Assembly: GCA_017993505.1 (NCBI GenBank) | Contig: JAGOMP010000003.1 | Coordinates: 1-64,000 of the forward strand | Length of the DNA: 64,000 bases | Direction of reading: 5' to 3' | DNA from: Planctomycetota bacterium | GTDB lineage: Bacteria; Planctomycetota; Uabimicrobiia; Uabimicrobiales; JABWCH01 | Shown here: piece after piece, positions 13,738 to 55,552 of the stretch | Numbering within the stretch: position 1 is the first letter of the stretch | Layout of the letters: every line of letters starts with the position of its first letter | Position numbers and translations under genes: made by a program | Notes under the pieces: model-generated | What the model was told of the DNA's origin: nothing | The model's input: the letters and a program-made list of their open reading frames with translations, nothing else | The model's database searches: none

Positions 13738-16700
13738 ATGCCTGATAACCTGAAATTTTATCCTGAACAAAGAAGTGTAACTATAAATCCTTTAGATCGA
13801 CAAGGTGAGTTGCGTTACTTTTTGGAAGGTTTTTCTGGTAAGATATCGCAAAAAGAAATTACACTCAAATATGCCTTTCCAGCAAAATTAGGGACTGCAT
13901 CACAAGCATTAAAAGATAAGATTCGTAGCATTCTAGTAAATATTCTAGATGTAACCCATTTTAGCGTTCTTTCCGGTAGAAACCGTGCAACCATTGTTGT
14001 TCCAATTTGTCAATTACAAGATACTTCTCTATTAGCCCATGAGGGGACTATTAGAGTGCCTATTTTATTAAAATTAATAAAACATGATGAACTCGACCAA
14101 GAACTCAAATGTGCTCAAGAACTTCATCTCATTACAGATTTACAAGAACCAGTTGAAGAAGATCATTTAGCCGATGAAGGTGATGTAGATTTTTCTGATC
14201 AACCAGAAGAAAAGATTGGAAATGAGCAAGATGCACTTGCCTATAATAACGATGATGAATCCTTAGATGATGCTACAGGTGATGGAGATGTATATTCAGA
14301 AGAATCTGAGGATGAAGATGATGATGATGAACATGATGCTAGTAGTTTATATAGTGGTTTGATGGCAATAGATTATGGAACAACCAACTCAGCTATTGTT
14401 GTCCGAGATCCACGTTATGCTGCGGAAGAAGTTCGTGGTCAACTCAGTACAGAACAATGGGATTTTTTATGCGAATGGATTAACAATTGGTTGACAGAAC
14501 ACTTGGCTACTATTGAACCAATGGAAACCGATTTATTCGTAGAAAATTTAACACGCATTGTTCCTAATGCGAATCTACCCACTTGTGGAACGCCTGATGA
14601 TGAAATTAAACGTTCCCTCTTACAATTAGATGATACAATCCGTACACAAATTCTTTCTGAAACTTTATGTAGACTATCCAATTTTTCGCAAGAAGGAACT
14701 ACGTCTCGCATTTTACAAGATATTGCTCCTGAAGTTATGCGAGGGTTTGAAGCTGTTATTGATTCCAAAACATTAGAATCTCAAAGATACTTTGTACTAG
14801 AACTAGATGAAAATGCTGGTCCAGCTCCTATTCCTAGTACATTGCAAGTTGTCTCAGCACCCAGCACAGAAGATTTAAATCGATTGATGGAAGAAACAAA
14901 AATTGATATGGGTGCACGAGTTAGTTTATTACTCCGAAGTGCTGCAAGTGGTGGAGCAGATATTCGTCAATTCGTGATTTCTGTGAAACGATATTTTGGT
15001 CGTGATGAAGTGATTGAAGTATTGCCTTCTGAAAATGATGGCATGCCAATTCAATTTCCAGCAGACACATTATGTCGCTTAGCATATCGAGAATTATTGC
15101 ATCGTGCTATTGCTGATATCCATAGACGAGCAGATGCAGGACAATTTCAAGATGGTGAATGGCCTTGTTCTCTTGTTGCTACATTTCCCACATCTTACCC
15201 TGCTTCTTTACGTCGTAATTTACGAGAAATCTTAACTGATTTGAACATCAAAGAAATCGATACACGTTTTGATGAAGCTACTGCTGCTGCTATTTTTTAT
15301 GTATGGCGTGAAGTTGGTGCTGACCCAGTTTGTGCAATGAATGGTCTCATGGCAAGATGTCGAAAAGATCGACATGGACGTGCTTACCAAAATATTTTAT
15401 TGTACGATTTGGGTGGTGGAACTACAGATATTGCTCTTATTCAGCTTTTATATGAAGAACTTCCTATTTTTGCAGAGGGAGCAGATCGAGGAAATGGTGG
15501 ACGTTATTTTCGTATTACTCCACGATTATTAGGAACTACAGGGCATAGATATATTGGTGGTGATTTAATTACATTATGGTTATTCCGTTTAGTAAAATCT
15601 AAATTAGCAGATTGTTTGCTACGTATCATCACAGAGAAAAACATTGAAGCACCCATGGATAGTCCATTGAGCCAAGTTTTACTCAATCTACCTGAATCAT
15701 TGATTGAAAATGATGGCGATGAAGACGCTACACCAAAATATAGAGTTGGTTCTCTCTTAGAATGGACTGCTCATCCCATGCAACAAATGCGTCAATATAA
15801 CAATCTTAATGAAAATATTATTGATGTGCTTGTTCCTACTCGTTTTGTGAATGATTCCAGCAAGACTTCTAATTTTTTCACAATGTGGGAAATGGTGGAA
15901 GAACTCAAAAAGACTATGGGAACCCCTGTAGAATCTGAGAGAACATCTGGCATTGCGAGAGAATGGCCAGAAGAAGCAGATATTGACAGTGGTCAACTCT
16001 TTAACTTTGTACAAAATGCCCATCCTTGGTTAACAGAAAGTGGAGCAGTACAGCAAGATGATTTGCACATTACTATTCCACAAACAGAACTCACTAAAAT
16101 TGCAAGAGATCCTATTAAGCAATCTCTCAGCCTTGCAGTCAGTTTATCTAAAGCAAGACTACTTACACAAGACCATAGAGATCGAATTGATAGACTTATT
16201 TTATCTGGACAATCATGCAATATGCAGTGTGTTCAAGTCGTTGCTAACGAAGTCTTCCGTGAAAGTGAAGGTGTATTTGATTACGATCCCGCCAATGTAC
16301 GTTTTGATAGAGATTCTGCGAAAACGTCAGTATCTTTAGGAGCATGTGTAGGACGTTATCTTGAATCTGTTCGTATTGATCCTTTCAATGAAAAGACAAA
16401 ACAAATGTTGCGTGACGGCTATGATCAAATTGAACTTGTGATTGAAAACTTGTTCACTTACTTATCTTGTCGTTTAGCATATGATTCTCTAGTTGCTATG
16501 GTTACTATTTTTGATCAAGGTCATGAACTTAATTTACGATCTTATACAGATAGACGTCCTGTAGCTAGAACATCTATTCATAATTTACGCCCTGTTCAAG
16601 AAAAATTCTGGATTTATCGCATTGATTTTGAAGGTGCAGAACCACAATATTTAGGCCTTATCAATGCTGAAGCAGTTGCTTTAGAAAATGGTTTTGATGA

Positions 16701-17586
16701 TTTCAGAAAATTCCGTGAAGAATATTTAGTTGGTTTTGAAGCAGATGCTGAGCTTTTTGTTCGTGCATTTTTCTTACCTCGTGGTCAAAAAACAATTACA
16801 GCAAAAACATATGAAGACCCTGTAGAAGGTGGTCCATTACCAGAACTCATTGCACGAGTTGATGGTTCTGCTATGGCTCCTAGCACAAGCTATACTGATC
16901 ATGAAGATTATGAAGAGCCAGAAGATCACGAAGATTATGAAGAGCCAGAAGATCACGAAGATCATGAAGATGAAGATCATGAAGATCATGAAATCCCAGA
17001 AGATGTAGAAAATGAATTTGATGAAGATGCAGAAAATGAATTTGATGAAGACGCTGAAGAACATGAAGAACCAGGACAAGAACAAGAAGAAGTAGCAAAA
17101 GTAGCTGCACCATCAATGGCAGATCGACAACGAGAGGAAAAGAGAAAATTAGAAGAACAAAGAGCAAAAGATAACAAAGCACCAGAACTTATTATTACTC
17201 ATACGATTACAAGCCAAGAAATTTTCGATAGACGACCCGTTATTTCAGCAAATACACCACTTGAATATATTGTACAATATCCTAATGGTGAAGAATTCAA
17301 ATGTGCTCTCAGTGAACCATTACCTATTCGTGAATCTTATGAATATCATGTGGAATCTCCTGATGAAACCGATTTCTCAGGAACAGTAGATGAAACAGAT
17401 CCATCTAGAGTACTCAAATTCCAAATAGATGAAGAAGAAACAGATGAAGCCACACTTGTATGCGATGAACGTGGAAGAATGGTAATGCTCACTTGTTCAC
17501 CCTATGAAATTAAAATTTGGGCAGATATTGAATATGTGCCACAAAAAATGGACATTCATTATGATCCTTTCTGCGGACACCATTAA
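13738..17586 (+). CDS. Giant Hsp70/actin-fold ATPase with acidic tracts (SrfB-like?)
   Basis: 1282 aa. An N-terminal ~140-residue domain of unknown type is followed by an acidic linker (141-203), then an Hsp70-like nucleotide-binding domain with large insertions. Phosphate-1 motif MAIDYGTTNSAIVV is near 208, phosphate-2 motif LLYDLGGGTTDIAL near 553 and adenosine motif RLILSGQSCNMQ near 818. A second acidic tract (1053-1119) of EDHED-type repeats and a β-rich C-terminus (PYEIKIWADIEYVPQ) follow. The spacing resembles SrfB-type proteins rather than DnaK, but I cannot confirm the family. No membrane segment is seen. RBS GAGGGA precedes ATG 13738 and a hairpin follows the stop. The RsbW-like gene is next, so a link to signalling is possible. 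Confidence 0.75.
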   Translation: MPDNLKFYPEQRSVTINPLDRQGELRYFLEGFSGKISQKEITLKYAFPAKLGTASQALKDKIRSILVNILDVTHFSVLSGRNRATIVVPICQLQDTSLLAHEGTIRVPILLKLIKHDELDQELKCAQELHLITDLQEPVEEDHLADEGDVDFSDQPEEKIGNEQDALAYNNDDESLDDATGDGDVYSEESEDEDDDDEHDASSLYSGLMAIDYGTTNSAIVVRDPRYAAEEVRGQLSTEQWDFLCEWINNWLTEHLATIEPMETDLFVENLTRIVPNANLPTCGTPDDEIKRSLLQLDDTIRTQILSETLCRLSNFSQEGTTSRILQDIAPEVMRGFEAVIDSKTLESQRYFVLELDENAGPAPIPSTLQVVSAPSTEDLNRLMEETKIDMGARVSLLLRSAASGGADIRQFVISVKRYFGRDEVIEVLPSENDGMPIQFPADTLCRLAYRELLHRAIADIHRRADAGQFQDGEWPCSLVATFPTSYPASLRRNLREILTDLNIKEIDTRFDEATAAAIFYVWREVGADPVCAMNGLMARCRKDRHGRAYQNILLYDLGGGTTDIALIQLLYEELPIFAEGADRGNGGRYFRITPRLLGTTGHRYIGGDLITLWLFRLVKSKLADCLLRIITEKNIEAPMDSPLSQVLLNLPESLIENDGDEDATPKYRVGSLLEWTAHPMQQMRQYNNLNENIIDVLVPTRFVNDSSKTSNFFTMWEMVEELKKTMGTPVESERTSGIAREWPEEADIDSGQLFNFVQNAHPWLTESGAVQQDDLHITIPQTELTKIARDPIKQSLSLAVSLSKARLLTQDHRDRIDRLILSGQSCNMQCVQVVANEVFRESEGVFDYDPANVRFDRDSAKTSVSLGACVGRYLESVRIDPFNEKTKQMLRDGYDQIELVIENLFTYLSCRLAYDSLVAMVTIFDQGHELNLRSYTDRRPVARTSIHNLRPVQEKFWIYRIDFEGAEPQYLGLINAEAVALENGFDDFRKFREEYLVGFEADAELFVRAFFLPRGQKTITAKTYEDPVEGGPLPELIARVDGSAMAPSTSYTDHEDYEEPEDHEDYEEPEDHEDHEDEDHEDHEIPEDVENEFDEDAENEFDEDAEEHEEPGQEQEEVAKVAAPSMADRQREEKRKLEEQRAKDNKAPELIITHTITSQEIFDRRPVISANTPLEYIVQYPNGEEFKCALSEPLPIRESYEYHVESPDETDFSGTVDETDPSRVLKFQIDEEETDEATLVCDERGRMVMLTCSPYEIKIWADIEYVPQKMDIHYDPFCGHH

Positions 17587-22865: not shown

Positions 22866-24701
22866 TTATTCATCTATAATTATAGCATAAGGTTCAATCC
22901 ATGTCGGTATTGTAATATTGTATCGCTTAGCTGTTTTTCTATTAATATAAAGTTCGCCTCTAGGTAAATGAAAAATAGGAAATGCGTCTGCTGTTTTTCC
23001 TTTTAAAATTTGTACTCCATAATAACCAGCTATCTCACCCTGTTTCTTTCCTGTTGCCACTACACCAAATAGTGCACCTTGCTTTATATTAAAATCTAAT
23101 AAACCTAAAAAAGGTTTTTCTATATTTCCCAGTATCCATTGTAAAACATCGGCAGAAGAAATATAATTACCTTGTTCATCTTTTAAATTGTGATACATGG
23201 GAATATAAAAAAAATCTACTTGTGATTCATATTGCTTTAAACATTGTTTCCATTCTTCCCAATTTGCAGAACAAAAAGTTTCTAAACAGTACAATGGAAT
23301 TGTCTCTAATTCCTGATGTATATGTTGAAGCATTTCAGAAGCAATAGGAGTATCTTCTATTAAAATGACGTAATTTTTAGCTGTGGGAAGAAAAGTATCT
23401 ATTTTTTGAAATGTTTGTTTTACAAAAACATCTTCACAAATTCCCGTGACATTTTTTTGTGGAAATCCATATTCTTTTATATCATTGTTGACACCGCAAA
23501 ATACAAATTGAATGGAAGAATGGAAAAAATGAGGAGTAATATAACCAGTAGCAAGATCATCGATTGTAATTACAAGATGAGGACGCCAAGATCGTATTAA
23601 ATGGATAGCTTGATGTATTTTCGATTGAATTTTTTCTTCTTCGCTTTCTTTTTTTGCATTGATATAAAAATCTCGTACAACAATTTCTTTATCAGAACGT
23701 AATAAATGATTTTCAAATGTTTCTAAGATCGCTTGTCGAATATGTATATCCCAAAGAATGTCTTTTTCATAGCTGAATACAAGCAAGACTCGTTTGGGAG
23801 ATTCTAAAAAAAATAGCCAAAAACAAAGACCTGCGATTAAAATAATAAATCCAAGGATAAATTTCCATAAGTTACTCAGGTCTATACTAGCTTCACAATT
23901 TTGATTTTGTAAATAATTTTGTAAATCATTGAAAAAACGTGTGGCATTTTGATATCGTACTTTTAAAGACTTTGCCATTGCCTTTCGACAAATGGCATCT
24001 ATTTTTTTATCAATTTCAGGATTGACTTTAATAGGCGATAGTGGCTCTTTTTCCAATACTTGGGCTAATATTTGAACAGAAGTATCAGAACTAAATGGAG
24101 GTTGTGATGTGAGAATTTCATATAGAATAGCTCCTAAAGAATAGACGTCACTTTGAAATTCTACCTTACCTTTCAATTGTTCAGGTGCCATATAAGTTGG
24201 TGTGCCTACTGTTTCTTGGTGTTGAGAAATAGTCATTACCTCTTTTGCCAATCCAAAGTCCATTAATATGGGTTCACCATTGGATTGAATCATAATATTT
24301 GATGGCTTAATATCTCGATGAATAATTCCTTGAGAATGTGCATATGCCACTGCATCTACTATTTTTACTAAAAGACGAATGCCATCTTGAACAGAAATTT
24401 TTTTTTGTGATAATAAACTACTCAAAGATTCGCCTTGAATAATAGGCATTGTAAAATATATTTGATCTTGATCTTCGCCTACATCATATACAGTGATGAT
24501 ATGCGGATGACGCAACCGAGCTATATTTTGTGCTTCTTTCATAAAATGTTCTTTATTTTGAAAGACATTTTTTGGATGCAATAAAATTTTCATGGCAACA
24601 CGGCGACAAAGTACTGGATCATATACATCCAGTACTTTGCCCATGCCGCCATGACCTATTTCATTTAAAATTTTATATCTTCCAATATTTTTTGGAAGCA
24701 T
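22866..24701 (-). CDS. Receptor Ser/Thr kinase with ABC-type substrate-binding ectodomain
   Basis: 611 aa. Cytoplasmic Hanks-type kinase (1-265) with intact residues: GHGGMGKV loop, Lys38, HRDIKPSN Asp130, DFG 148-150 and APEQ. A single membrane helix (~280-300) follows. The exported C-terminal ~305 residues resemble the ABC_sub_bind family of periplasmic binding proteins: KRVLLVFSYEKD, HLVITIDDLAT, IQFVFCGVNND, TGICEDV, GLLDFNIKQGALFGVV, and a final GELYINRKTAKRYNITIP. It probably senses a small extracytoplasmic ligand. It starts 24 nt after the last pseudopilin gene with a good RBS (AAGGA), so it likely belongs to that operon. Confidence 0.88.
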   Translation of the reverse strand: MLPKNIGRYKILNEIGHGGMGKVLDVYDPVLCRRVAMKILLHPKNVFQNKEHFMKEAQNIARLRHPHIITVYDVGEDQDQIYFTMPIIQGESLSSLLSQKKISVQDGIRLLVKIVDAVAYAHSQGIIHRDIKPSNIMIQSNGEPILMDFGLAKEVMTISQHQETVGTPTYMAPEQLKGKVEFQSDVYSLGAILYEILTSQPPFSSDTSVQILAQVLEKEPLSPIKVNPEIDKKIDAICRKAMAKSLKVRYQNATRFFNDLQNYLQNQNCEASIDLSNLWKFILGFIILIAGLCFWLFFLESPKRVLLVFSYEKDILWDIHIRQAILETFENHLLRSDKEIVVRDFYINAKKESEEEKIQSKIHQAIHLIRSWRPHLVITIDDLATGYITPHFFHSSIQFVFCGVNNDIKEYGFPQKNVTGICEDVFVKQTFQKIDTFLPTAKNYVILIEDTPIASEMLQHIHQELETIPLYCLETFCSANWEEWKQCLKQYESQVDFFYIPMYHNLKDEQGNYISSADVLQWILGNIEKPFLGLLDFNIKQGALFGVVATGKKQGEIAGYYGVQILKGKTADAFPIFHLPRGELYINRKTAKRYNITIPTWIEPYAIIIDE

Positions 24702-24725: not shown

Positions 24726-25334
24726 CTATGAATTATTGAATGTTGGAATCATTAATTGTGTGTAAAACTTTTTAATCAATCGTTTGTTACGACAAATACG
24801 AATCGTAATGTCGTATAAACCGACTGGATTATTAGTAGCAATAGCGGGACGTGCAATTTCTATGTTGTAAGAATATTGTTGTAATTGATTATTATCTGAA
24901 AGACCATAGTAATTGCTAAGATCGAAAGCATTATTGGGAGGGACATTATGGGAAGCTAAGTTTCTAAAATGTGTATCATGATTTTCAGTCACAGTCTTAC
25001 CATAGTTAGATGTGTCTACAATTCCTAGAGGAGCAGGAAATCCCAAACTTTTGCTTCCAGCAAAATTACCTGTTGTAAATGTAGTAGTTGTTCGTGCACA
25101 ACAACCATCAAAGAAAAATGGCATTGTTTTTCCTGGTTGTGTTTTAATAGCACTAGCACGCAAAGCAGCATGTAGAGATTCAGCTATAATCGATACATTT
25201 GTATCTTCAATAGATTTATTCACCGCATTTAAGCCTACTGGGAATAATGCCAAGATTCCTGAAACTCCTAATGCTAAAATTCCCATGGAAATTAATATTT
25301 CAATTAATGTAAAACCTTTTTGTGTTTGTTTCAT
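24726..25334 (-). CDS. Pseudopilin (GspI/PilV-like)
   Basis: 202 aa. Prepilin leader MKQTQKG, then FTLIEILISMGILALGVSGILALFPVGL: the G/F cleavage site, Glu5 and the hydrophobic helix of type IV pilins and T2SS pseudopilins. The globular part has no recognised family. It is fifth in a tightly packed row of five pseudopilin genes and directly precedes the receptor kinase. RBS AGGAG. GspI or PilV-like by order and N-terminus only. Confidence 0.8.
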   Translation of the reverse strand: MKQTQKGFTLIEILISMGILALGVSGILALFPVGLNAVNKSIEDTNVSIIAESLHAALRASAIKTQPGKTMPFFFDGCCARTTTTFTTGNFAGSKSLGFPAPLGIVDTSNYGKTVTENHDTHFRNLASHNVPPNNAFDLSNYYGLSDNNQLQQYSYNIEIARPAIATNNPVGLYDITIRICRNKRLIKKFYTQLMIPTFNNS

Positions 25335-25350
25335 TGTTGGCTCCTATGTT

Positions 25351-26067
25351 TTATTGTCCTCTGGGAATCCATATCACTCGACTTAATGTTCTACGTGCTC
25401 GCATAAATTCGTCTGTCAATGTCATAGTGATGCGTACAGCAGGTGGAAGTGTAGGCAATTTAGTATCCCCAGGTGGATTTGCTGCTCCGTTATTTATACT
25501 CCAATTTGCAGTTTCATTATTATTATGTGTGAAAAACTCTGTTAAAAAAGGAATATTCATAGTAGGTGCAGGATTATCAGTATCTGGTAGAGGATCCATA
25601 TTTATCACATAAGGTGGAACTAAAAATTCAGCAAAAACATCTGTTATTGGATTACTGGGGTTGTCAGCTGGTATTATTGTTCGTTGCAAACTAAAGAGTG
25701 GTTGACTATTAAATGTGCGTGAAGGGATTAATGTATATTGTACCATGGCTGCACCTGTTCGTTGTGTGTTACCATCTATCCAAGAAGTTACTGTGTGAAA
25801 TGTCAGTAATAAACCACCAGCGTTTGGATTATTAATATTCAATACTTCATTAGGAGCCAATGGTGTACCAGTCATATTGGTAATATCTCGTGCCATAAGA
25901 TCAAAGGCCGCACGAGCATTTTGATAGATTCCCATTTTGGCTTCTGCAAGTGCCATCACTTCAGAGGAACTACTAAAAATAGTGACTACAACCCCCATTA
26001 AAAGAACCATTAAGCCAATGGCAACCATTAATTCTACTAGAGTAAAACCTTTATGTATGTATTTCAT
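25351..26067 (-). CDS. Pseudopilin (GspJ/PilW-like)
   Basis: 238 aa. Leader MKYIHKG, then FTLVELMVAIGLMVLLMGVVVTIFSSSSEV with the cleavage Gly/Phe and Glu5. The longer globular part, with ARAAFDLMARDITNM after the helix, is typical of GspJ/PilW-type minor pseudopilins (ALxxLxxDI). Ends 17 nt before the next pseudopilin. No clear RBS, so translation may be coupled to upstream genes. Confidence 0.8.
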   Translation of the reverse strand: MKYIHKGFTLVELMVAIGLMVLLMGVVVTIFSSSSEVMALAEAKMGIYQNARAAFDLMARDITNMTGTPLAPNEVLNINNPNAGGLLLTFHTVTSWIDGNTQRTGAAMVQYTLIPSRTFNSQPLFSLQRTIIPADNPSNPITDVFAEFLVPPYVINMDPLPDTDNPAPTMNIPFLTEFFTHNNNETANWSINNGAANPPGDTKLPTLPPAVRITMTLTDEFMRARRTLSRVIWIPRGQ

Positions 26068-26146
26068 AAAAATGAAGCGTTGTCTTCTATAAGAAAACGC
26101 AACCCTCCAAAATCATTGTTAAAATTATCTTACTTAATTCTATTAA

Positions 26147-26782
26147 TTATTGTCGTGGTTCTCGAATGGCAGTCCTTACTTTACCAGTATTATGATTAAT
26201 ATCAATAAAACATCTCTCTGTAAGGTTATTTTGAACTAGTATAATATCTGTATCATCACAGTGAGGATTATTAAGATCATTAGGATCATTGTTTTGGTTT
26301 GTTATATCTGTAAACATAATCGTTCCATCAGGATTAAAAATCAAATAAAATGCATTCACATCCGGTGTTTGCCATTTTACATGTTCTGAAATTTCAGTAG
26401 GTTGTCCTGCTGGTATAAATGCTGGAGTTGTAGCAGTTTCGTTGGAATCATAGGAACTAATGGTATTTCTTCTTACTTTGGGGGCTGGACTCATAGTTAC
26501 AGTAGAGATTGTTATCTTATTAAGAGTTACCTCATCGTTTATAATATTATCAGAATTATTATTCCTGAAAAGTGCAAAAGCCAATACTTGTCGTTCCCGT
26601 TGTGCAATAGCTCGCGACCGAGTTTCCATACAAGCCATTTGAATGGCAGTGGCAGCACCATTTAAGTGACGTTTGCTCATAACATCACTCAAAGCAGGAG
26701 CAGCCATGGCTGCCATGATTACAATAATGGAAATGACAACAAGTAATTCCACTAATGTAAAACCTTTTTTTGTTTGTTTCAT
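26147..26782 (-). CDS. Pseudopilin (GspH-like)
   Basis: 211 aa. Leader MKQTKKG, then FTLVELLVVISIIVIMAAMAAPALSDVM. GspH/FimT-like features are the short segment RHLNGAATAIQMACMETRSRAIAQRERQ and a later FNPDGTIMFTD, common in GspH (FxPxGxxx). Good RBS AAGG. Middle gene of the five-gene pseudopilin row. Confidence 0.8.
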   Translation of the reverse strand: MKQTKKGFTLVELLVVISIIVIMAAMAAPALSDVMSKRHLNGAATAIQMACMETRSRAIAQRERQVLAFALFRNNNSDNIINDEVTLNKITISTVTMSPAPKVRRNTISSYDSNETATTPAFIPAGQPTEISEHVKWQTPDVNAFYLIFNPDGTIMFTDITNQNNDPNDLNNPHCDDTDIILVQNNLTERCFIDINHNTGKVRTAIREPRQ

Positions 26783-26805
26783 GCTATATACCTTTTTTGA
26801 ATGAG

Positions 26806-27441
26806 TTATTTACCATCTGCATCTTGTTCTTCTACGAGTCTTGTGAGTGGCATCCAACTGGCAATGTCATCATTACCAGCGTTTTTAAAATTATGTTGTG
26901 TAGTTGTTCCCCCTTTTGAAATTTGGAGTATACCATCAGGACCTGAAGAATATATGTCTAAAGGAGTACCCCAACGAAAATCTGGTTTTTTTTCGTTATA
27001 ATTATTAGGACCACGTGGAATATCGTTAGAATGATCACGTCCAGCTTCTACGTACAATGAATTCCCCCAAGCATCGATATACTCTTCATATGTACCTTTC
27101 AGTATTTTAGGCAAATTTTGTGTTAAAACAGGATCTTGTTTTACGATATCCGAGTCACTGCTAGAGGGATCAAATTCTTCTAAAGCATGAACTAATTTTT
27201 GATTATTATTCGTTCTACCTACACATCCGCCTTCTCCAGTTTCTACATTAGGGTAGCGATAATAAATAGCTTTGAATTGTTCACAAGCACTTGTTAATGC
27301 CATAATAGTTCCATACGTAGACTTAATTCTTGCTTTCGCAACCATACCTCTCCCTACAGAAAGAACAATGCCAGCTAAAATACCAATAATAGCTATTACC
27401 ATTAGCAATTCTACTAGAGTAAATCCTTTTTTTAGTTTCAT
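26806..27441 (-). CDS. Pseudopilin (GspG-like)
   Basis: 211 aa. Leader MKLKKG, then FTLVELLMVIAIIGILAGIVLSV. The C-terminal part resembles the major pseudopilin GspG: YIDAWGNSLYVE followed by LDIYSSGPDGILQ, a pattern that binds calcium in GspG. RBS AGGAG. Whether it forms a secretion pseudopilus or a true pilus cannot be decided, since no ATPase, secretin or GspF gene is in the window. Confidence 0.83.
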   Translation of the reverse strand: MKLKKGFTLVELLMVIAIIGILAGIVLSVGRGMVAKARIKSTYGTIMALTSACEQFKAIYYRYPNVETGEGGCVGRTNNNQKLVHALEEFDPSSSDSDIVKQDPVLTQNLPKILKGTYEEYIDAWGNSLYVEAGRDHSNDIPRGPNNYNEKKPDFRWGTPLDIYSSGPDGILQISKGGTTTQHNFKNAGNDDIASWMPLTRLVEEQDADGK

Positions 27442-27460
27442 GGTTTTCTCCTAGTATCCA

Positions 27461-28051
27461 TTAATTTAGATAATTTGTGATCCATTTAAATGTATCCATA
27501 TTTCTCATATTTTCAGGTGCATCCCCATGAGGACCCGATCCTGATCCATCATCTGTATTATTAGGGTAATTTGCTTTACTGAAAATTTGAAAAGAACGAT
27601 AATTATAACGTGCTATTTCAGGTAAATAACTAGTAGTAACTCTGTTTTGTAAATTTAATATATGACAATTTAAATATAAATAAGGAGACATAAAGGGATC
27701 AAAATATGTATTACCAACTACACTTTTTGGTTCAAATTCATAGTAAATAATTCTTGAATTACCAAATCCATCAGCTGTTGTAGTTGTATCGCCATCTAAA
27801 CAAGGAACAAATGTTGTTGCTGAATAATTAAAATGAGCTGGATCTGGAGCAATAGTAGGTGGATACAGTCCATAATCTAATTGATATGCTTTGACTGCTT
27901 GGTTTAATTGACTGATCGTAGCAGAAACTTTAGAACGTATTGCTCTTGTTCTTGCACTTCCTAGAGAAGGCAATAGAATAGCTGCTAGAATGCCGATAAT
28001 GGCAATCACAACTAAGAGTTCTACTAAAGTAAAACCTTTTTGTCGTTTCAT
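27461..28051 (-). CDS. Pseudopilin (GspG/PilE-like), first of the operon
   Basis: 196 aa. Leader MKRQKG, then FTLVELLVVIAIIGILAAILLPSLGSARTRAIRSKV. Globular part with QAVKAYQLDYGLYPP and a C-terminal GFGNSRIIYYEFEPKS, again GspG/H-X9-DG-like. RBS AAGGA. First of the five pseudopilin genes, 69 nt downstream of RNase Y on the same strand; that gap contains a repeat of the rny 3' end. Confidence 0.83.
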   Translation of the reverse strand: MKRQKGFTLVELLVVIAIIGILAAILLPSLGSARTRAIRSKVSATISQLNQAVKAYQLDYGLYPPTIAPDPAHFNYSATTFVPCLDGDTTTTADGFGNSRIIYYEFEPKSVVGNTYFDPFMSPYLYLNCHILNLQNRVTTSYLPEIARYNYRSFQIFSKANYPNNTDDGSGSGPHGDAPENMRNMDTFKWITNYLN

Positions 28052-28071: not shown

Positions 28072-28144
28072 TGCATATTCTATAATTTTTACAATTTTCA
28101 TATTCTAGATAATGGAAATTTTAATGTGCATATTCTACAATTTT
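28072..28144 (-). repeat. Partial, decayed duplication of the rny 3' end
   Basis: The start of the block at 28072 (TGCATATTCTATAATTTT) recurs at 28127, where it is the end of the rny coding strand (TGCATATTCTACAATTTT). Offset is 55 bp and the rest is diverged. Confidence 0.6.
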
Positions 28145-29656
28145 CATTTCTCGGACAACTGTAATTTTGATTTTTCCTGGATAGTGTAATTCTTTTTCAA
28201 TTTCTTTTGCAATTTTTTGAGCAACTACACTTGTTTCTTTGTCAGAAATTTCTTCAGGGTTGACTATGACTCGAATTTCGCGTCCTGCGGAAATAGCAAA
28301 GGCATTTTCAATGCCAGGAACGTTGTATGCAATGGATTCTAATTTTTCTAGGCGGTTAATATATTTTTCAAATGTTTCACGACGTGCACCTGGCCTTGAT
28401 GCACTAATGGCATCTGCTGTATTGATCAAAGTAGCATACATAGTCTCTAGTTGTATATCATTGTGATGTCCTACAATTCCTTCGATAATCTCTGGTGCTT
28501 CATTGAATTTGCTTATAATTTCGCCTCCGATTTCTGGATGACCGCCTTCTTTTTCATGGTCTAAAGCTTTACCAATATCGTGCAAAAAACCAGCTCTGCA
28601 TGCTAAGTCTTTATCTAAACCAATTTCAGATGCAATAAGTTTGGCAAGATATGCAACTTCAATAGAATGCCAAAGGACGTTTTGACCAAAACTTGTACGA
28701 AATTTTAATCGTCCTAATAATTGTCGTATATCTTCATGGAAATGAAGTTGAAGTAGTATACAAGCCTGATCCCCGCCTACAATGATAGCATTTTCCATTT
28801 CTTCTTTAGATTGTTCTAAAAGTTCTTGTATACATTGTTCTGGGTTAAGTTTGTAGTCAATGAGTTTTTGAATGATTTGTCTGCAAATTTCTCGACAACA
28901 TCCATCTGGTGATACAATAGATAAAATCTTGTAATTTTCATCATATTCTAGGTAAATATCTTCGCTATCAAGGTTTTCTTGTAATATTTTTGTAATCTTT
29001 TCAGACGTGATTTCTTGTGCAAAAGATTCATCTTCAATAGAAAAAAAACTAGGATATGCTTCGATCCAATGACTAAATTGACAACGTTGGATAATAGCAG
29101 ATAAAATTCGTCTTGCTGTTCGTTCTGCATTAGCATTTAAATAATCTATATGTCTATTGTATTGGACTCTAAATTCTGTTTGCACTACTTTTTCAAAATT
29201 ACAGAGAAATTCTTTTTTTAATTTTTCTTCTGTTTCACCAGAAATTTCCAAAAGAATTTTATGAGAGTTTGCTTGTAATGTTTTATACGTTGTTTCTTTT
29301 GTTTTAATTGTGTTTTGTAGTTGGAGTAGTTCAGCAGTTTTCTTTTGAATATATTCTTCCATTTGTTGTAATCTAGCTTCATGGATTTCTATATCTTTTG
29401 TTTGTATATCTAGCCGTTGTTCTAAATTTTGATTATTCTCACGTGCTTCACTAATCCACTGAAACGAGGTTTTTTTTTGGTATTCCAATTCTCGTTTTAA
29501 CTTTTCGGTCATTTGATGATATAGTTGATTTGCTTTTTCTTCACTTTGTTGAAGAATTACTTTGGCAATGGCTAGAGCTTCTTTTTTTCTTCGATTGTAT
29601 AGCCATGTATATATACAAAACCCAAGTATTATACTAACAACTAACACTGTATTCAA
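28121..29656 (-). CDS. rny: Ribonuclease Y with degenerate KH domain
   Basis: 511 aa. RNase Y is a membrane-anchored endoribonuclease that starts mRNA decay. N-terminal membrane helix (residues 3-18), long coiled coil (~25-150), KH region, and HD domain with intact HDIGKALDHE and ISASRPGARRETFE. The KH domain is unusual: the RNA-binding GxxG loop, normally GREG, reads TSEK. The usual strongly conserved block around it is lost, though flanking parts (AERTARRILSAIIQRC; LIDYKLNP) align. The start is uncertain: TTG 29656 is only 1 nt from GAGGA, and GTG 29647 is better spaced. Confidence 0.9.
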   Translation of the reverse strand: MNTVLVVSIILGFCIYTWLYNRRKKEALAIAKVILQQSEEKANQLYHQMTEKLKRELEYQKKTSFQWISEARENNQNLEQRLDIQTKDIEIHEARLQQMEEYIQKKTAELLQLQNTIKTKETTYKTLQANSHKILLEISGETEEKLKKEFLCNFEKVVQTEFRVQYNRHIDYLNANAERTARRILSAIIQRCQFSHWIEAYPSFFSIEDESFAQEITSEKITKILQENLDSEDIYLEYDENYKILSIVSPDGCCREICRQIIQKLIDYKLNPEQCIQELLEQSKEEMENAIIVGGDQACILLQLHFHEDIRQLLGRLKFRTSFGQNVLWHSIEVAYLAKLIASEIGLDKDLACRAGFLHDIGKALDHEKEGGHPEIGGEIISKFNEAPEIIEGIVGHHNDIQLETMYATLINTADAISASRPGARRETFEKYINRLEKLESIAYNVPGIENAFAISAGREIRVIVNPEEISDKETSVVAQKIAKEIEKELHYPGKIKITVVREMKIVEYAH

Positions 29657-43320: not shown

Positions 43321-44976
43321 TTATTCATCATTGTCTGGCGAATATGTCGTCATGAAAATACATTGAAATGTACCAATATCCAAGCGGTCTCCATTTTTTA
43401 AAGGACTCATGTACACTGCTTTCCCGTTTACTTTAGGGGGTCTGAATGCACCGATGTGATAAAGGTAAAAGCCTTTTTTCTCATGAATGATCACAGCATG
43501 TCGAGCACTTACAAGAAATCCGCCAGTAACTATTTCATTGTTGGAAGATTTTCCAAAAAAAACTCCTCGCTTTGTAATGGGAATTTTTTTCATAGTTCCA
43601 ACAACCATAAGATATGCAGGTGCTACGTCTCTTTGTTGGGCAAGACCACTAACATCAATGGCCATAGTTGTTGCCATAGCTTTAAAAGATTTTGTAGCTT
43701 TTTTATTTTTAATATTTTTTTTCTCTGATTTAGTAGCAAGTTTAGAGAGTTTGCTACTCATTTTTTGAAAATACAAAGTATGTTTGGCAAGAAAAATTTC
43801 ATCACCAGAATTCAGAACATGTTCGTAAATTCTCTGCCCTTTGATGAATGTTCCAGTCTTGCTTTGTTTATCTCGTAAGAAAAAGAGTTTTCCAATACGT
43901 TCAATTTCAGCATGAACGCGAGAAGTTCCTAAATTATTAATCACAATATCGCATTCTGCATCTCTACCAATGGTAACTAAATTTTTATCAAATACAAGAG
44001 TATCTATAATCTGACCAGAAAGTACAACTTTAATTTGAAAGGGCATTGTTTCCCCAATTTGTTGTTTGAGTTCTAATAATTTTTCATATTCTTCTTCCTC
44101 TTCTGGAGTTAGAACTCTTCCACTGGTTATTGCCTCTTCATTATTATAGTAATCTATGATTTCTTGGAATGGTGACTTAGCAGTTGTTTCAGGAATCACA
44201 GTATTTATTTGTTCATATTGATTAGGTGTTGTATCTTGAGCTACATTATTTGCTTGTACAGATTTTTTAGGTGTTGTATCTTGAGCTACATTATTTGCTT
44301 GTACAGATTTTTTAGGTATTGTATCTTGAGCTATAGTATTTGCTTGTACAGGTTTTTTAGGTGTTGTATCTTGAGCTATAGTATTTGCTTGTACAGGTTT
44401 TTTAGGTGTTGTATCTTGAGCCATAGTATTTGCTTGTACAGATTTTTTAGGTGTTGTATCTTGAGCCATAGTATTTGCTTGTACAGGTTTTTTAGGTGTT
44501 GTATCTTGAGCCATAGTATTTGCTTGTACAGGTTTTTTAGGTGTTGTATCTTGAGCCATAGTATTTACTTGTGTAGGTTGCTTAGCTGTTGTATTAGGAA
44601 CCATAGTATTCTCTTGATTAAATTTTTTTGTAATGAGATCATCATTAATCATGAAATCATCATTTTTCAAGAGGTCTTCATATGAGGGAATATTTAAATT
44701 GAAGTCTGCTGAATCCATTTCTTGCGTACTGACTCGGATAGCATTCATGGTTTCATCTTGAAATGTAGAAACATTATCTGTATTTGTGGAATTTTCTTCT
44801 GTACTAGCAAGTTTTTTGTCATCTAAAAAATTATATTCTTCTATTTCTTCTATTTCTGATTCAATGAGTTCACCGTAAACTATATCTTCCCCATATGTTT
44901 CATCGGAGAGATTCTCTTCTATTTTATTTTGACATTCTAATTGGCAATTGTATTTGCGAATTTTATTGGAATCCAT
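43321..44976 (-). CDS. Double-FHA protein with 15-residue repeats
   Basis: 551 aa, soluble. An acidic N-terminal ~100 residues are followed by about eight copies of a 15-residue unit (AQDTTPKKPVQANTM type), Thr-rich and likely disordered and phosphorylatable. Two C-terminal FHA domains follow: VTIGRDAECDIVINN, TSRVHAEIE, KTGTFIKGQ; and FFGKSSNNEIV, SARHAVII. The second is less canonical, lacking the R of GR. FHA domains bind phosphothreonine, so this could be a reader or scaffold for the many kinases here. RBS AAGG. Upstream on the minus strand is a possible structured RNA (45010-45067). Confidence 0.85.
   Translation of the reverse strand: MDSNKIRKYNCQLECQNKIEENLSDETYGEDIVYGELIESEIEEIEEYNFLDDKKLASTEENSTNTDNVSTFQDETMNAIRVSTQEMDSADFNLNIPSYEDLLKNDDFMINDDLITKKFNQENTMVPNTTAKQPTQVNTMAQDTTPKKPVQANTMAQDTTPKKPVQANTMAQDTTPKKSVQANTMAQDTTPKKPVQANTIAQDTTPKKPVQANTIAQDTIPKKSVQANNVAQDTTPKKSVQANNVAQDTTPNQYEQINTVIPETTAKSPFQEIIDYYNNEEAITSGRVLTPEEEEEYEKLLELKQQIGETMPFQIKVVLSGQIIDTLVFDKNLVTIGRDAECDIVINNLGTSRVHAEIERIGKLFFLRDKQSKTGTFIKGQRIYEHVLNSGDEIFLAKHTLYFQKMSSKLSKLATKSEKKNIKNKKATKSFKAMATTMAIDVSGLAQQRDVAPAYLMVVGTMKKIPITKRGVFFGKSSNNEIVTGGFLVSARHAVIIHEKKGFYLYHIGAFRPPKVNGKAVYMSPLKNGDRLDIGTFQCIFMTTYSPDNDE
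44222..44600 (-). repeat. About eight 45-bp tandem repeats inside the FHA gene
   Basis: In-frame 45-bp units differing by few bases encode the 15-residue repeat. The outermost copies are more diverged, suggesting expansion from the centre. Number of copies is likely variable between strains. Confidence 0.95.
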
Positions 44977-51016: not shown

Positions 51017-51128
51017 AATGAGGTTGTGATCTATTAAACACAATTTTGATATGTATTTTTTTTAATGAGGTTGTGATCTATTAAATAAAATTTTGATATG
51101 TATTTTTTTAATGAGGTTGTGATAGATT
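51017..51128 (-). repeat. Two extra copies of the rnc 3' end
   Basis: AATGAGGTTGTGAT starts at 51017, 51064 and 51110. The third is the real end of the rnc gene (NLSQPH-stop). Periods are 47 and 46 bp; copies one and two differ mildly from the gene. Confidence 0.93.
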
Positions 51129-52208
51129 AAACAAAATAGGAAAAGGAAAACTTTCTTGTGATTGGGAGAGTTGATTGATTTGCAAAGGACTGAAAGTTGC
51201 CGCATCTTCAATTCGTTCTTCTGATAAAATTTCTAATGTGGTGCGAGCAGCTTGTTTCTCAGATTCTTTATACCTAGAAGCTTGAACTTCTGGAAAGGAA
51301 CGGCCTCCTATAGAAATATGAGTATGATATAATATGTTATCTTCATCATCAATTGTTTTTGTATGATGGTAGATTGGTTCTGGTAAATTTAGTTTTTCAG
51401 AAATATGTTGTAAAAGTGTTTGAGAATCTCGAAGCAAACTTGGATTTTGAATGAGTTGATTTTTATTAGGATCTGTATAAAGTTGTAATAAATTAGATAA
51501 TTTTGCAGAAATAACAGGATCCTCTAAGGAGAGAATTTGCAGTGCAGCATGTGCTGCTTCTTGTTCTGCTTCTTTTTTATTTTTTCCAATGCCTGCTAAA
51601 AATTTTCGTTTTCCTATGACAACACAAGATGTAAATTGAGGAACTCCTAAAGTACTCTCTTTACTAGGTAAACTTTGGTAGGAGGGCGTTGTTCCTAAAT
51701 ATTTTTGTGATATAAATTGCAAAAGACTTTTATAATTTTTTTGATAAGGATCTTTAATCACTGTTTCAATTTCATCTTTTAAATTCGATAGTATAAATTG
51801 TTTAGCTGGTTCCATGCCACCATCAAGATAAATCGCTCCCACAATGGCTTCATATTCATTAGCTAAAATTGAAATAGGAAAATTTTGTGTTTTTCCAATA
51901 CCGCCAGCATATGCAAAATAATTTTGTAATTCTAATTTTTGAACTAATTTTGCTAATGTTTCTCTAGATACAACTTCGGATTTAATCAATGTTAAATCAC
52001 CTTCATCAAATTCTTGAAATGTTTGGTAAAGATATTCACATGTGACTAAACCTAAAATCGCATCTCCTAAAAATTCCAATCGTTCATTAGAATACTCATT
52101 TTCTTTTCGTATAGAAGAATGTGTGAGACTCTGTTTTAAAAGTTGTATATTTTTAAAAGTATATCCTATATTTTGTTGGCACTTTTCTAATATTTCCTCT
52201 GTAAACAT
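51108..52208 (-). CDS. rnc: Ribonuclease III with two dsRNA-binding domains
   Basis: 366 aa, against about 220-250 for usual bacterial RNase III. RNase III domain 1-150 with signature NERLEFLGDAILGL (Glu42, Glu45, Asp49) and ANEYEAIVGAIYLDGG. There the position of E. coli Asp114 is Asn117, while the essential Glu is Glu120. First dsRBD 158-227 (NYKSLLQFISQKYLG … AGIGKNKKEAEQEAAHAAL). A ~35-residue linker is followed by a second dsRBD at 261-330 (DSQTLLQHISEKLNL … ASRYKESEKQAARTTL). The tail of ~36 residues is Gln/Ser-rich. It processes rRNA and cleaves dsRNA. RBS AGGA. A terminator upstream separates it from the kinase operon. Confidence 0.93.
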   Translation of the reverse strand: MFTEEILEKCQQNIGYTFKNIQLLKQSLTHSSIRKENEYSNERLEFLGDAILGLVTCEYLYQTFQEFDEGDLTLIKSEVVSRETLAKLVQKLELQNYFAYAGGIGKTQNFPISILANEYEAIVGAIYLDGGMEPAKQFILSNLKDEIETVIKDPYQKNYKSLLQFISQKYLGTTPSYQSLPSKESTLGVPQFTSCVVIGKRKFLAGIGKNKKEAEQEAAHAALQILSLEDPVISAKLSNLLQLYTDPNKNQLIQNPSLLRDSQTLLQHISEKLNLPEPIYHHTKTIDDEDNILYHTHISIGGRSFPEVQASRYKESEKQAARTTLEILSEERIEDAATFSPLQINQLSQSQESFPFPILFNLSQPH

Positions 52209-52226: not shown

Positions 52227-52260
52227 AAAAAAGCAATTAGATTACCACTAATTGCTTTTT
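52227..52260 (-). terminator. Terminator between the PDZ gene and rnc
   Basis: 13-bp stem AAAAAGCAATTAG with CTAATTGCTTTTT, 7-nt loop, T-run on both strands. It ends the kinase/pseudokinase/PDZ operon. Confidence 0.87.
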
Positions 52261-52306: not shown

Positions 52307-53155
52307 TTATTTATTACGGATAGGAAATGTGAGTGTCATTTTTTCATTCCCACGTAAAATTTCTACTTGAATGACTCCATCCCTACGATGTTTTTCGACC
52401 AGTTCTCTAAGACTCCGCATACTAATAGAAGTGACTTTGCTACCATTCACAGATTGAACTATATCATTTTCTTGAAAACCAAATTGTTGTGCTTCTGAAT
52501 TATCATGAATTCTGCGTAAAAGAATTCCATCCTCTACAACTTCAGGAGATAATTCCTCTATATATTTATCCATATTATTAATAATATGGCGTCCTTCTTG
52601 AGGAGTTACAATTCTTGTATAGAGTTCAGTATCTTCTGTTGTACTCGTTTGCATTGCACTTTCTTCTTGGTATTCAAGCCAAATTTCTTTATCATTATAT
52701 AAAAATTTAATTCCTTTTGTAGGAAGAATTTCTAATGCAATGATTTTATGTCCGCTAATGTTTATTTCCCAAGGACGTGATCGTTCGTAAAGATTTCTTG
52801 GTGTTTGTTCTTCTAACATGATTCGTACACCATTGACTTTTACCACTGCATAACCTTTAGAAATAATACGCTCTATTGTTACATTCTTCACAATAAGCTG
52901 TTTATAAAAATCTATGGTAGAAACAGGTGCTGTTTGAACAACTGGTGCTTTTGCTATAATCTGGCTTTTCCATATATCTTCATATGTATTTAAAGAGGGT
53001 TGTTGTACTACTTTTTTTTCACCCCTGGGCGTTATGTCTATCGGTTCATAGGGAGTCGGAGTTATGTTAAAAATGATGAATAATATAAAAATAATTAAAA
53101 ATATAAGACATATAGTTCCTGTCCAACATAGTTTTATTGTTAGTTTAATAGACAT
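52307..53155 (-). CDS. GspC-like membrane protein with C-terminal PDZ domain
   Basis: 282 aa. One N-terminal membrane helix (~10-30). A periplasmic middle part follows with two GspC-like β units (TIERIISKGYAVVKVNGVRIMLEE; ISGHKIIALEILPTKGIKFLYNDKEIWLEY). The C-terminal PDZ domain spans ~195-280 (GILLRRIHDNSEAQQFGFQENDIVQSVNGSKV … VEILRGNEKMTLTF). This is the layout of the T2SS inner-membrane component GspC, which connects to the secretin. Its gene follows the FHA-pseudokinase by 16 nt, an unusual context. RBS AGGGG. Confidence 0.75.
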   Translation of the reverse strand: MSIKLTIKLCWTGTICLIFLIIFILFIIFNITPTPYEPIDITPRGEKKVVQQPSLNTYEDIWKSQIIAKAPVVQTAPVSTIDFYKQLIVKNVTIERIISKGYAVVKVNGVRIMLEEQTPRNLYERSRPWEINISGHKIIALEILPTKGIKFLYNDKEIWLEYQEESAMQTSTTEDTELYTRIVTPQEGRHIINNMDKYIEELSPEVVEDGILLRRIHDNSEAQQFGFQENDIVQSVNGSKVTSISMRSLRELVEKHRRDGVIQVEILRGNEKMTLTFPIRNK

Positions 53156-53171
53156 ATATTCCCCTATTTTA

Positions 53172-54506
53172 TTAGCGTGGTAAAGATAGTATCATAATAG
53201 ATAATATTAACGTAATAAACATTAAAAGACACCAAATAATCCAAGGAGTTTGATACCATGTGATAATTTTATAAAGTAAAGGTGAAGAATACACATTCCC
53301 CTCCTCTTGAAATTTGATGACTTTTTCTCGATACAGCACATCTTCTAATTTATCAGCAATTTCTTGGCACGTTCGTGGGCGTTGTTCTGATTCTTTTTCT
53401 AAACAATTATAAATAATAGCTTCAATGCTTGCTGGTATCCCAGAATTATATGTTGTGATAGCTTTAGGCGTATCATTCAGAATACTTTCCACTATAGAAT
53501 CTATATTTTTTTCTACAGAAGAATGATGACCAGTAGAGGTTTTAGAGGGATTGGGGCCTTTCCCAGAAAATGGATTGATTCCTGTTACCATTTCGTACAA
53601 TATCACACCTAAAGCATATATATCGGTTCTTTCATCTACTTTATCATGTAAAATTTGTTCAGGAGCTAAGTATGGCAAATTATCTACAAGCCCTGTATAA
53701 TTTTCTCGTATATCCCCTAGTACGTTTGCAAGTCCTACTCCATTGATGAGAATTCGATTGTCATGTAAAAAAATGCTATCAGGCGTTAAATTTTGGTGCA
53801 ACAATCTATTGCTATGAGCATGAGCTAAACCTCGTGCAACTCCCAATGCAATTTCTAAAGATCGTTCTAAAGAAAGTTTTTGATTGGAAGCAAGCAAAGT
53901 GGATAGTGTTTCTCCCTCTAAATATTCTGTAGTGTAATATAAATAATTTTCTTTAGCTTCAAAGTCCAAAAGAAGAGGAATATTAGGTTGATTGAGTTTC
54001 CCTAAATTTCGAACGTGTTGTTGGAATCTTTCTTGAATATAAGGATTATTTCGTATAAAGTGAGGCGGCAATAAAGTTAAAGTAACTATTCGTTTGAGAC
54101 GAACTTGCATTACTTTAAAAGTTCTGCCAATAATGCCAGTTTGTTGAAGTTCTTGTAAAAATTCGTATTCTTTCACTTCCTCATTAATTTTTTTAATCTC
54201 TATCTCATTTCCAAAAGAAAGCCAAGTGTCACCAATACGAATATAATCACCAGCTTGTAATTCCTTTTTTGAAGTAACAGATAACCCATTCAGATATGTA
54301 CCATTACTACTTTGTAAATCTTCAATATAAAAATTATCATTGATTTTTATAATACGTGCATGTTTTCGTGATGCTTTTTGATCATGGATAAAAATATCTG
54401 CTGTTTTATCTTGTCCTTCTTCTGCTTCACGTCCTAAAATGACTGTTGTACCAATAAAGTACTCGGTTCCTGCATCAAATCCTTTTTCTATTTTTAATAT
54501 TGCCAT
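53172..54506 (-). CDS. FHA-domain pseudokinase with C-terminal membrane anchor
   Basis: 444 aa from ATG 54506; GAGG lies 10 nt upstream and would be inside the ORF if the ATG at 54521 were used. FHA domain 1-100 (VILGREAEE, SRKHARI, SSNGTYLNG). A kinase-like fold spans ~115-395 with every catalytic element changed. The VAIK lysine is Thr144 (VTLTLL), HRDxKxxN is HQNLTPDS (237-244), and DFG is GVG (256-258). APEQ and DIYALGVILYEM remain. One membrane helix ends the protein (~420-440). Probably a non-catalytic scaffold or allosteric partner for the active kinase encoded just upstream. Confidence 0.88.
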   Translation of the reverse strand: MAILKIEKGFDAGTEYFIGTTVILGREAEEGQDKTADIFIHDQKASRKHARIIKINDNFYIEDLQSSNGTYLNGLSVTSKKELQAGDYIRIGDTWLSFGNEIEIKKINEEVKEYEFLQELQQTGIIGRTFKVMQVRLKRIVTLTLLPPHFIRNNPYIQERFQQHVRNLGKLNQPNIPLLLDFEAKENYLYYTTEYLEGETLSTLLASNQKLSLERSLEIALGVARGLAHAHSNRLLHQNLTPDSIFLHDNRILINGVGLANVLGDIRENYTGLVDNLPYLAPEQILHDKVDERTDIYALGVILYEMVTGINPFSGKGPNPSKTSTGHHSSVEKNIDSIVESILNDTPKAITTYNSGIPASIEAIIYNCLEKESEQRPRTCQEIADKLEDVLYREKVIKFQEEGNVYSSPLLYKIITWYQTPWIIWCLLMFITLILSIMILSLPR

Positions 54507-54553
54507 TTTATTTCGCCTCATTATGAATTTTCATGTTCATGTCTATGTTCATA

Positions 54554-55552
54554 CTATACGAGATACTTTGCAATAACTATCAATAGCAAAATAAACAATG
54601 AAACAAGCGTTGCAAGAATCATGTGATTGAGTTTTTGATCGTTTCTATAATGATAAAAAAGTTTAGGCACATCTTTTGTATATTTTTGATTGGCTAAAAC
54701 AAGAAGTTTGCATCGTTGTATATCATGTAATAATTCTTCAGCATCTTGATAGCGTCTTTGTATATCACCTTCTAAACATTTGTGTACAATATATTCTAAA
54801 TATTCAGGAATTTCTGGTTTTATCTCTCTTATAGGCATGGGACGAGATTTTTTAGGGAGTTTATCTAACATTTGACGGTCTAAAATCATATCTCTTTTAT
54901 TTTCTGCATTAAAAGCACGCATTCCAGTGAAGGCTTCGTACATAACTGCCCCTAATGAAAAAATATCGCTTTGCCCATCTACTTGTGTACCACGTGCTTG
55001 TTCTGGTGACATGTAAGGTGCACTTCCAATAACATAACCTTCTCTAGTTAAATCTGGAGATTCACGTTGTATTTTTGCAATTCCAAAATCTAATAAAATG
55101 GATTTACCAAAATGATCGACCATAATATTGGATGGTTTGATATCTCGATGCACAATTCCGTTTTTATGAGCTAACTTTAAAGCACTTGCCATTTCTTCAA
55201 AAATAGTGAGAGATTGCATAAAAGAAAGTCTTTTTTCATCAATCAAAGTAGATAAAGATTCACCTTCAAAATATTGCATAACAAAATAATTAATTTTTTC
55301 TCTATCAACTTCTAAGATACCTACTTCAAAAATAGGTATAATATTGGGATGAAATAAACGTGCAGCAGACTTTGCCTCATAATCAAAACGTTTAATTTTT
55401 CGTTCATCTTCTTTAGCAAATTCTAAGGGCAGTACTTTAATGGCAACGATTCTGCCAATTATATCTTGCTCTGCTTTGAAAACAGTGCCCATAGAACCTT
55501 GACCAATGAGGTCTAAAATCTGATATTTACTAAATTTTCTTGGTACTTCCAT
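54554..55552 (-). CDS. Membrane-anchored Ser/Thr protein kinase
   Basis: 332 aa Hanks-type kinase with all catalytic residues: GQGSMGTVFKA, Lys39 in VAIKVL, HRDIKPSN Asp137, LLDFGIAK Asp155, SPEQARG and DIFSLGAVMYEAFTG. The C-terminal ~22 residues (~309-330) form a membrane helix with no ectodomain, so it is a tail-anchored kinase. First gene of a three-gene operon with the FHA-pseudokinase and the GspC-like PDZ protein. RBS GTAGG lies 7 nt before the start and is inside a duplicated 31-32-bp block. Confidence 0.92.
   Translation of the reverse strand: MEVPRKFSKYQILDLIGQGSMGTVFKAEQDIIGRIVAIKVLPLEFAKEDERKIKRFDYEAKSAARLFHPNIIPIFEVGILEVDREKINYFVMQYFEGESLSTLIDEKRLSFMQSLTIFEEMASALKLAHKNGIVHRDIKPSNIMVDHFGKSILLDFGIAKIQRESPDLTREGYVIGSAPYMSPEQARGTQVDGQSDIFSLGAVMYEAFTGMRAFNAENKRDMILDRQMLDKLPKKSRPMPIREIKPEIPEYLEYIVHKCLEGDIQRRYQDAEELLHDIQRCKLLVLANQKYTKDVPKLFYHYRNDQKLNHMILATLVSLFILLLIVIAKYLV

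Follow-up and report, generated by a model that had tools for sequence, protein, structure and literature searches.

A conserved kinase/FHA-pseudokinase gene pair of Planctomycetota found in Tad operons of several families

Organization of the locus

The window analyzed here is a stretch of 64,000 nucleotides from a 3.08-Mb metagenome-assembled genome of the order Uabimicrobiales, in which some 50 FHA domains and over 100 kinase matches were counted. Three co-directional open reading frames on the minus strand code for a Ser/Thr kinase (54554-55552), a protein that joins an FHA domain to a pseudokinase (53172-54506) and a single-pass PDZ protein (52307-53155). The initial annotation assigned the range 53172-55552 to all three genes; it accommodates the kinase and the FHA-pseudokinase, and the PDZ gene lies outside it. 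The intergenic distances of 47 and 16 nt given there are correct, the first when the pseudokinase starts at ATG 54506 (MAILKIEKG), which agrees with the start of all orthologs. Initiation at an alternative in-frame ATG upstream, at position 54521, would reduce this gap to 32 nt.

Between the PDZ gene and the RNase III gene rnc lies a hairpin of 13 perfectly paired bp with T runs (52228-52260, no strand assigned), a probable terminator. Its earlier description as strong is generous because the hairpin is AT-rich with three G-C pairs, and it is symmetrical so that it could act on either strand. The rnc gene (51108-52208, minus strand, assigned by Pfam) also adjoins the PDZ gene in four relatives (G002, G003, G004 and G005). 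RNase III carries, here and in relatives, a carboxyl-terminal extension of ~140 amino acids past the dsRBD that resembles a second dsRBD, with no Pfam score. On the plus strand of the window, positions 13738-17586 code for a protein of 1282 amino acids that matches SrfB weakly, has an acidic tail of repeats and looks Hsp70/actin-like by eye, and an alkaline-phosphatase-like gene (3518-4853) is found in two overlapping frames (3518-4309 and 4272-4853), due to a frameshift or an assembly error.

The kinase

The first gene codes a PknB-like protein of 332 amino acids with a catalytic domain at residues 10-276 (Pfam Pkinase, 157 bits). Alignment shows intact glycine loop (GQGSMGTV), beta3 lysine (VAIKVL), HRD (HRDIKPSN) and DFG (DFGIAK) motifs, the features of a Hanks-type Ser/Thr kinase, and all catalytic residues are also retained in the other kinases of this family. 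To judge from these residues it is a working kinase. A hydrophobic helix at residues 310-328 (54569-54625, minus strand; Kyte-Doolittle mean 2.78) provides the predicted tail anchor, and a carboxyl-terminal hydrophobicity peak of 2.07-3.04 is found in 14 of 14 related kinases (Kyte-Doolittle). The initial description of a tail-anchored kinase with a complete catalytic apparatus thus stands. The protein stops at the transmembrane helix and has no extracellular domain. No extracellular PASTA domains were found in it, and an assignment to the PASTA kinases PknB/Stk1 was rejected, the model NF033483 scoring 280 bits against a cut-off of 450 and matching the kinase domain only.

The activation loop (LTREGYVIGS) includes Thr169 (55046-55048, minus strand), which is invariant in the alignment of the same 14 kinases. 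It presumably aligns with Thr171 of PknB, an autophosphorylation site. Thr169 is a candidate autophosphorylation site and a candidate ligand for the FHA domain. In another kinase of the window (22866-24701, minus strand) the kinase domain is joined to PF04392, a substrate-binding domain of ABC transporters, which is an uncommon sensor in Ser/Thr kinases.

The FHA-pseudokinase

The 444-amino acid product of the second gene was delineated from its translation, Pfam FHA and Pkinase matches and an AlphaFold model. Its FHA domain (residues 24-92; 54231-54437, minus strand; Pfam FHA, 66.5 bits; 70.2 bits in a second search) aligns with the phosphothreonine-binding core GR, SxxH and NGxxxNG, present as LGRE, SRKH and NGTYLNG (SSNGT..NG kept). 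It therefore has the characteristics of a phosphothreonine-binding FHA domain, and binding is predicted. The kinase fold that follows (residues 124-381; 53364-54137, minus strand; Pfam Pkinase, 102.8 bits) was described initially as having its lysine, HRD aspartate and DFG aspartate all replaced, and alignment bears this out: the beta3 lysine is a threonine (VTLT for VAIK), HRD reads HQN (HQNLTPDS) and the DFG aspartate is a glycine, within INGVGLAN in the window and LGGFGLAS in relatives. The domain is thus a pseudokinase by its motifs. An AlphaFold model based on an alignment of seven sequences has a kinase fold (pLDDT 75). Its best PDB match in a Foldseek search is PknB in complex with GarA (6i2p, E 5e-19), and the FHA-kinase Rad53 was also retrieved.

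A feature absent from the first description is the carboxyl-terminal hydrophobic helix of this protein (residues 423-441 of 444; 53184-53240, minus strand). Since few residues follow the single hydrophobic helix, both kinase-fold proteins of the window are predicted to be tail-anchored and to have no extracellular sensor. The short tail after the helix holds closely in the Uabimicrobiales orthologs of the pair; it reaches up to ~50 residues in some other members and far more in one kinase of the paralogous pair described below. Membership of the GLW or ActPs3 pseudokinase families was rejected for the second gene because of its HQN motif and the absence of a MurJ part. When plasmids were searched with the pseudokinase, the only matches were partial kinase hits of low identity, and none reached 80% coverage of the query. 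A protein encoded elsewhere in the window (43321-44976, minus strand) has two FHA domains and some ten imperfect repeats of 15 residues (PKKPVQANTMAQDTT).

The PDZ protein

The third gene (minus strand) codes for 282 amino acids, with an amino-terminal transmembrane segment and a PDZ domain at residues ~204-277 (52325-52546, minus strand; PF13180, 31.3 bits). The helix spans residues 4-30 in an AlphaFold model made with no alignment, which is not interpretable at a pLDDT of 41; a possibly beta-rich middle part is seen only in this low-confidence model. A single-pass protein of this kind had been likened to GspC of type II secretion systems. The order of the two elements supports the comparison, homology does not: the T2SSC/HR domain (PF11356) has no Pfam match in the PDZ protein, its five orthologs or 18 genomes, hhalign against E. 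coli GspC gives a probability of 4.5%, and a PDB profile search finds nothing of GspC past the PDZ domain. The neighbors of the gene in relatives are PilT and rnc genes rather than gspD. The likeness to GspC thus appears to be architectural only.

Of 40 relatives searched, the other five members of the order are the only ones with a full-length ortholog of the PDZ protein. The gene order PilT-PDZ-rnc is found in G002, G004 and G005; in G003 the PDZ and rnc genes lie at a contig end, and in G001 the PDZ gene is flanked by a HEAT-like gene and rplU. Across the order the matching PilT shows 70-78% identity; in G001 and G003 it is encoded on a different contig from the PDZ gene, and the genome of the window offers no more than a 53% match. 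Through these PilT neighbors the PDZ gene is associated in relatives with a type IV filament motor. It adjoins kinase genes in none of the five order relatives that have an ortholog, and only in the lineage of the window do the kinases occupy the slot upstream of it. A conserved unit of all three genes, as first proposed, was therefore not recovered: the same order is absent from related genomes, an outcome that the initial annotation had itself named as refuting, and the PDZ gene, whose conserved neighbors are PilT and rnc, is best regarded as a local neighbor of the pair.

Conservation and duplication of the gene pair

The genome of the window (G000) was compared with its nearest relatives (G001-G005), three from its own family and two from elsewhere in the order. 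One of these two is G005, Candidatus Uabimicrobium amorphum SRT547, from which the order takes the name used here; the six form the order set. Kinase and FHA-pseudokinase genes are adjacent on the same strand, kinase first, in eight planctomycete genomes of five families (G000, G003, G004, G005, G010, G041, G083 and G252). The gap between them is ~1-50 nt in six of these, 230 nt in G083 and 439 nt in G252. Both genes are present but separated in G001, and only the second is found in G002, a genome 59% complete in which the kinase was not detected. A profile search of 392 planctomycete genomes retrieved ten FHA-pseudokinases at 370-741 bits and everything else at or below 305 bits.

A paralogous pair (dyad B, the one of the window being dyad A), which also combines an active kinase, as judged from its motifs, with an FHA-pseudokinase, occurs in five Uabimicrobiales genomes (G000, G001, G003, G004 and G005). 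Its pseudokinases display VLLW, HLHL or HSHL, and E[FL]G motifs; VLLW suggested membership of the GLW family, which is ruled out by HLH. In three genera dyad B is followed by a gene for a CDP-alcohol phosphatidyltransferase (L089:10175-14146; L091:3664-7095; L092:989-4380).

The FHA-pseudokinases of both dyads form one clade (support 100/99), separate from 24 other FHA-kinases of the phylum, and so do the kinases (100/99). Weaker FHA-kinase hits such as those of G064 and G129 were not retained as members, since they fall in the other clade, and the catalytic motifs of the G129 protein are intact. The split between A and B and the main sub-groups inside A are identical in the trees of the two partners, the A clade itself having lower support (85/79 and 82/79). 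This mirrored topology fits a gene pair duplicated as a unit and shows, as far as trees can, that the two genes were duplicated together in Uabimicrobiales. The membrane signaling unit envisaged in the initial annotation thus holds for the kinase and the FHA-pseudokinase, a conserved pair in eight genomes of five families with matching trees, and does not extend to the PDZ gene.

Lineage differences in degeneracy

One or more catalytic residues are missing from each dyad-A pseudokinase, and the 14 partner kinases keep all of theirs together with the activation-loop threonine. The dyad-A pseudokinases are 33-49% identical to the protein of the window (seven aligned members), which has lost the most catalytic residues among its relatives and has the longest branch (0.64) of the dyad-A members of the order. 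In G010 the DFG aspartate is lost (HFG) and HRD is changed to HQD, the beta3 lysine being kept. The pseudokinases of G083 and G252 (L224:6711-8156 and L225:7868-9322) are the opposite of the rest: DFG is kept, the beta3 lysine is replaced by arginine, and the FHA core is degenerate, its phospho-binding positions reading LGSD, LAPKHA or LAARHA, and NSV. Reading by the FHA domain therefore cannot be the sole conserved function of the family. The HRD aspartate is retained in most dyad-A pseudokinases and the beta3 lysine in G010, so that residual activity is possible in some orthologs.

Tad operons and other genomic contexts

In four genomes of three families outside the order (G010, G041, G083 and G252) the pair lies in a Tad operon, co-directional with the CpaF, TadB and TadC genes, in the order FHA-CpaF, TadB, TadC, DUF192, FHA, FHA, kinase, FHA-pseudokinase. 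It closes the operon in G010, G083 and G252; in G041 the same order is spread across two contigs, with the first FHA gene divided between their ends. FHA-CpaF of G010 combines a T2SSE match of 216 bits with an FHA domain, and its TadB and TadC are two T2SSF proteins. After the pair, G083 and G252 carry an epimerase gene and then PilT. The core FHA-CpaF-TadB-TadC-(DUF192)-FHA occurs widely in the phylum, in most cases with no dyad. Genomes with the dyad hold 11-35 T2SSE genes, so that some proximity between the two is expected by chance. In G028 an FHA-rich Tad operon core precedes genes for a dyad-like kinase and for a protein with two kinase domains (L287:9212-12173), the first partly degenerate (HADLNPKN) and the second apparently intact.

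FHA-CpaF was found in none of the six Uabimicrobiales genomes, from which it follows that the dyad left the Tad context there. In the genome of the window the pair is not part of a Tad operon, and in the other Uabimicrobiales its operon has no pilus gene. The earlier suggestion that the unit controls a secretion-like component thus finds its counterpart in the three other families, where the pair ends FHA-CpaF/TadB/TadC operons, and has no such link in the window itself. The window does encode, at some distance (24726-28051, minus strand), five clustered small proteins whose amino termini resemble those of type IV pilins (KGFTLVE or KGFTLIE), with an RNase Y-like gene alongside (28121-29656). 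The MshEN domain is normally part of pilus ATPases; in Ca. Uabimicrobium amorphum a gene with an MshEN domain and no ATPase domain match (L087:7695-8804) is convergent to the dyad.

Proposed role of the pair

The pair is conserved across families and often found in pilus-motor operons, and thus probably switches pilus-type machines by phosphorylation. It is proposed to be a conserved two-gene phosphothreonine signaling module, most likely a switch for type IV filament motors, a reading given a probability of about 0.5. The kinase would autophosphorylate its invariant activation-loop threonine, Thr169 in the window. The FHA domain of the membrane-bound pseudokinase would then dock on phosphorylated Thr169 or on a different threonine phosphorylated by the kinase, and the pseudokinase would act as an allosteric partner or a scaffold in the plane of the membrane. 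Control would run from the pair to type IV filament machines, the Tad pilus and PilT-class motors, and the CpaF assembly ATPase and the two further FHA proteins of the Tad operons might be readers of the marks made by the kinase. In the lineage of the window the pair would act out of the Tad operon, upstream of a PDZ membrane protein with orthologs in PilT operons, and any filament role in this organism is conjectural. A broader version is put forward tentatively: the pair would be a dedicated phosphothreonine relay controlling the motors of Tad-type and related type IV filaments in some Planctomycetota, FHA-CpaF and accessory FHA proteins being further readers, and in Uabimicrobiales, including the cell-engulfing Ca. 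Uabimicrobium amorphum, it would have been detached, duplicated and re-coupled to other membrane processes.

The dyad might instead be a general membrane signaling pair, for instance in envelope or lipid homeostasis, with no dedicated pilus role and with Tad as one of several lineage-specific couplings. The neighbors found in G003, G004 and G005 (DUF445, the convergent MshEN-domain gene or an RNase Y-like gene) and the phosphatidyltransferase gene after dyad B in three genomes favor this somewhat unlikely explanation, which has to account for the dyad holding an identical position in this Tad operon in three families outside the order. Improbable is the first proposal of a three-gene unit in which the pseudokinase, reading the kinase, would control a GspC-like secretion component, the PDZ protein. 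Its gene order recurs in no other genome searched, the PDZ gene keeps company with PilT and rnc, and no homology to GspC is detected past the PDZ domain, even if the close spacing and the terminator after the PDZ gene make a single transcript likely in the window and relatives link the PDZ protein to PilT.

That the second gene is a decaying kinase hitch-hiking in the operon is very improbable. The long branch and the heavier loss of catalytic residues of the window protein would be in line with decay. However, open frames and tail anchors are kept in ten dyad-A genomes and the FHA core in eight of these ten, to which the paralogous group of five is to be added; such retention in dyads A and B indicates selection on a non-catalytic role. 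The switch for type IV filament motors is retained as the preferred reading. It offers a concrete candidate kinase and pseudokinase partner for FHA-CpaF motors, encoded in the same operon, which makes phospho-control of Tad pili directly testable.

Relation to known systems

No literature was found on the planctomycete pair or on a kinase tied to FHA-CpaF, subscription journals being outside the scope of the search. A survey of Planctomycetota kinases that included those of Uabimicrobium counted as functional only proteins with an intact K-D-D triad (PMC11032199), so that the pseudokinases of the dyad would have been left out. In a 2025 review of bacterial pseudokinases (PMC12599244) FHA comes up solely in connection with FhaA, which partners MviN, and Planctomycetes are absent. 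The dyad adds a family to the bacterial pseudokinases. GLW pseudokinases resemble those of dyad B in a bulky leucine or tryptophan in place of the beta3 lysine and in a carboxyl-terminal transmembrane segment (PMC12599244), but in them GLW replaces HRD, whereas the corresponding motif is HQN/HQD in dyad A and HLH/HSH in dyad B, and both carry an FHA domain.

EssB is not known to contain an FHA domain or to have a gene for a partner kinase. In T7SSb this membrane pseudokinase (EssB/YukC) and the FHA-containing EssC serve a secretion machine (PMC9600267; PMC4925161), which differs from the setting of the dyad in machine and phylum. The threonine phosphorylation pathway of T6SS, PpkA-Fha, uses a kinase and an FHA protein to switch an envelope-spanning machine post-translationally (PMC3953482). 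No pseudokinase part is described there, while the context of the dyad is Tad and type IV filaments, and the neighbors read around it include no T6SS (tss) genes. Class III CpaF is an FHA-bearing Tad ATPase, reported mostly from betaproteobacteria in a paper that names no kinase for it (PMC12019362). The FHA-CpaF that heads the dyad operon in G010, G041, G083 and G252 has the same architecture, but the planctomycete operon is closed by the kinase/FHA-pseudokinase pair; the genome of the window has no FHA-CpaF.

The mycobacterial system of PknB with GarA or FhaA and MviN shares with the dyad a PknB-like membrane kinase, an FHA reader and a pseudokinase domain used as scaffold; in MviN the phosphorylated tail recruits the FHA domain of FhaA (PMC12599244). 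The dyad differs in fusing FHA and pseudokinase in one tail-anchored protein encoded beside its kinase, with no PASTA domains, other extracellular sensor or MurJ part. Switching of an envelope machine by a kinase, or a pseudokinase, together with an FHA protein is a known theme, of which the dyad would be a variation.
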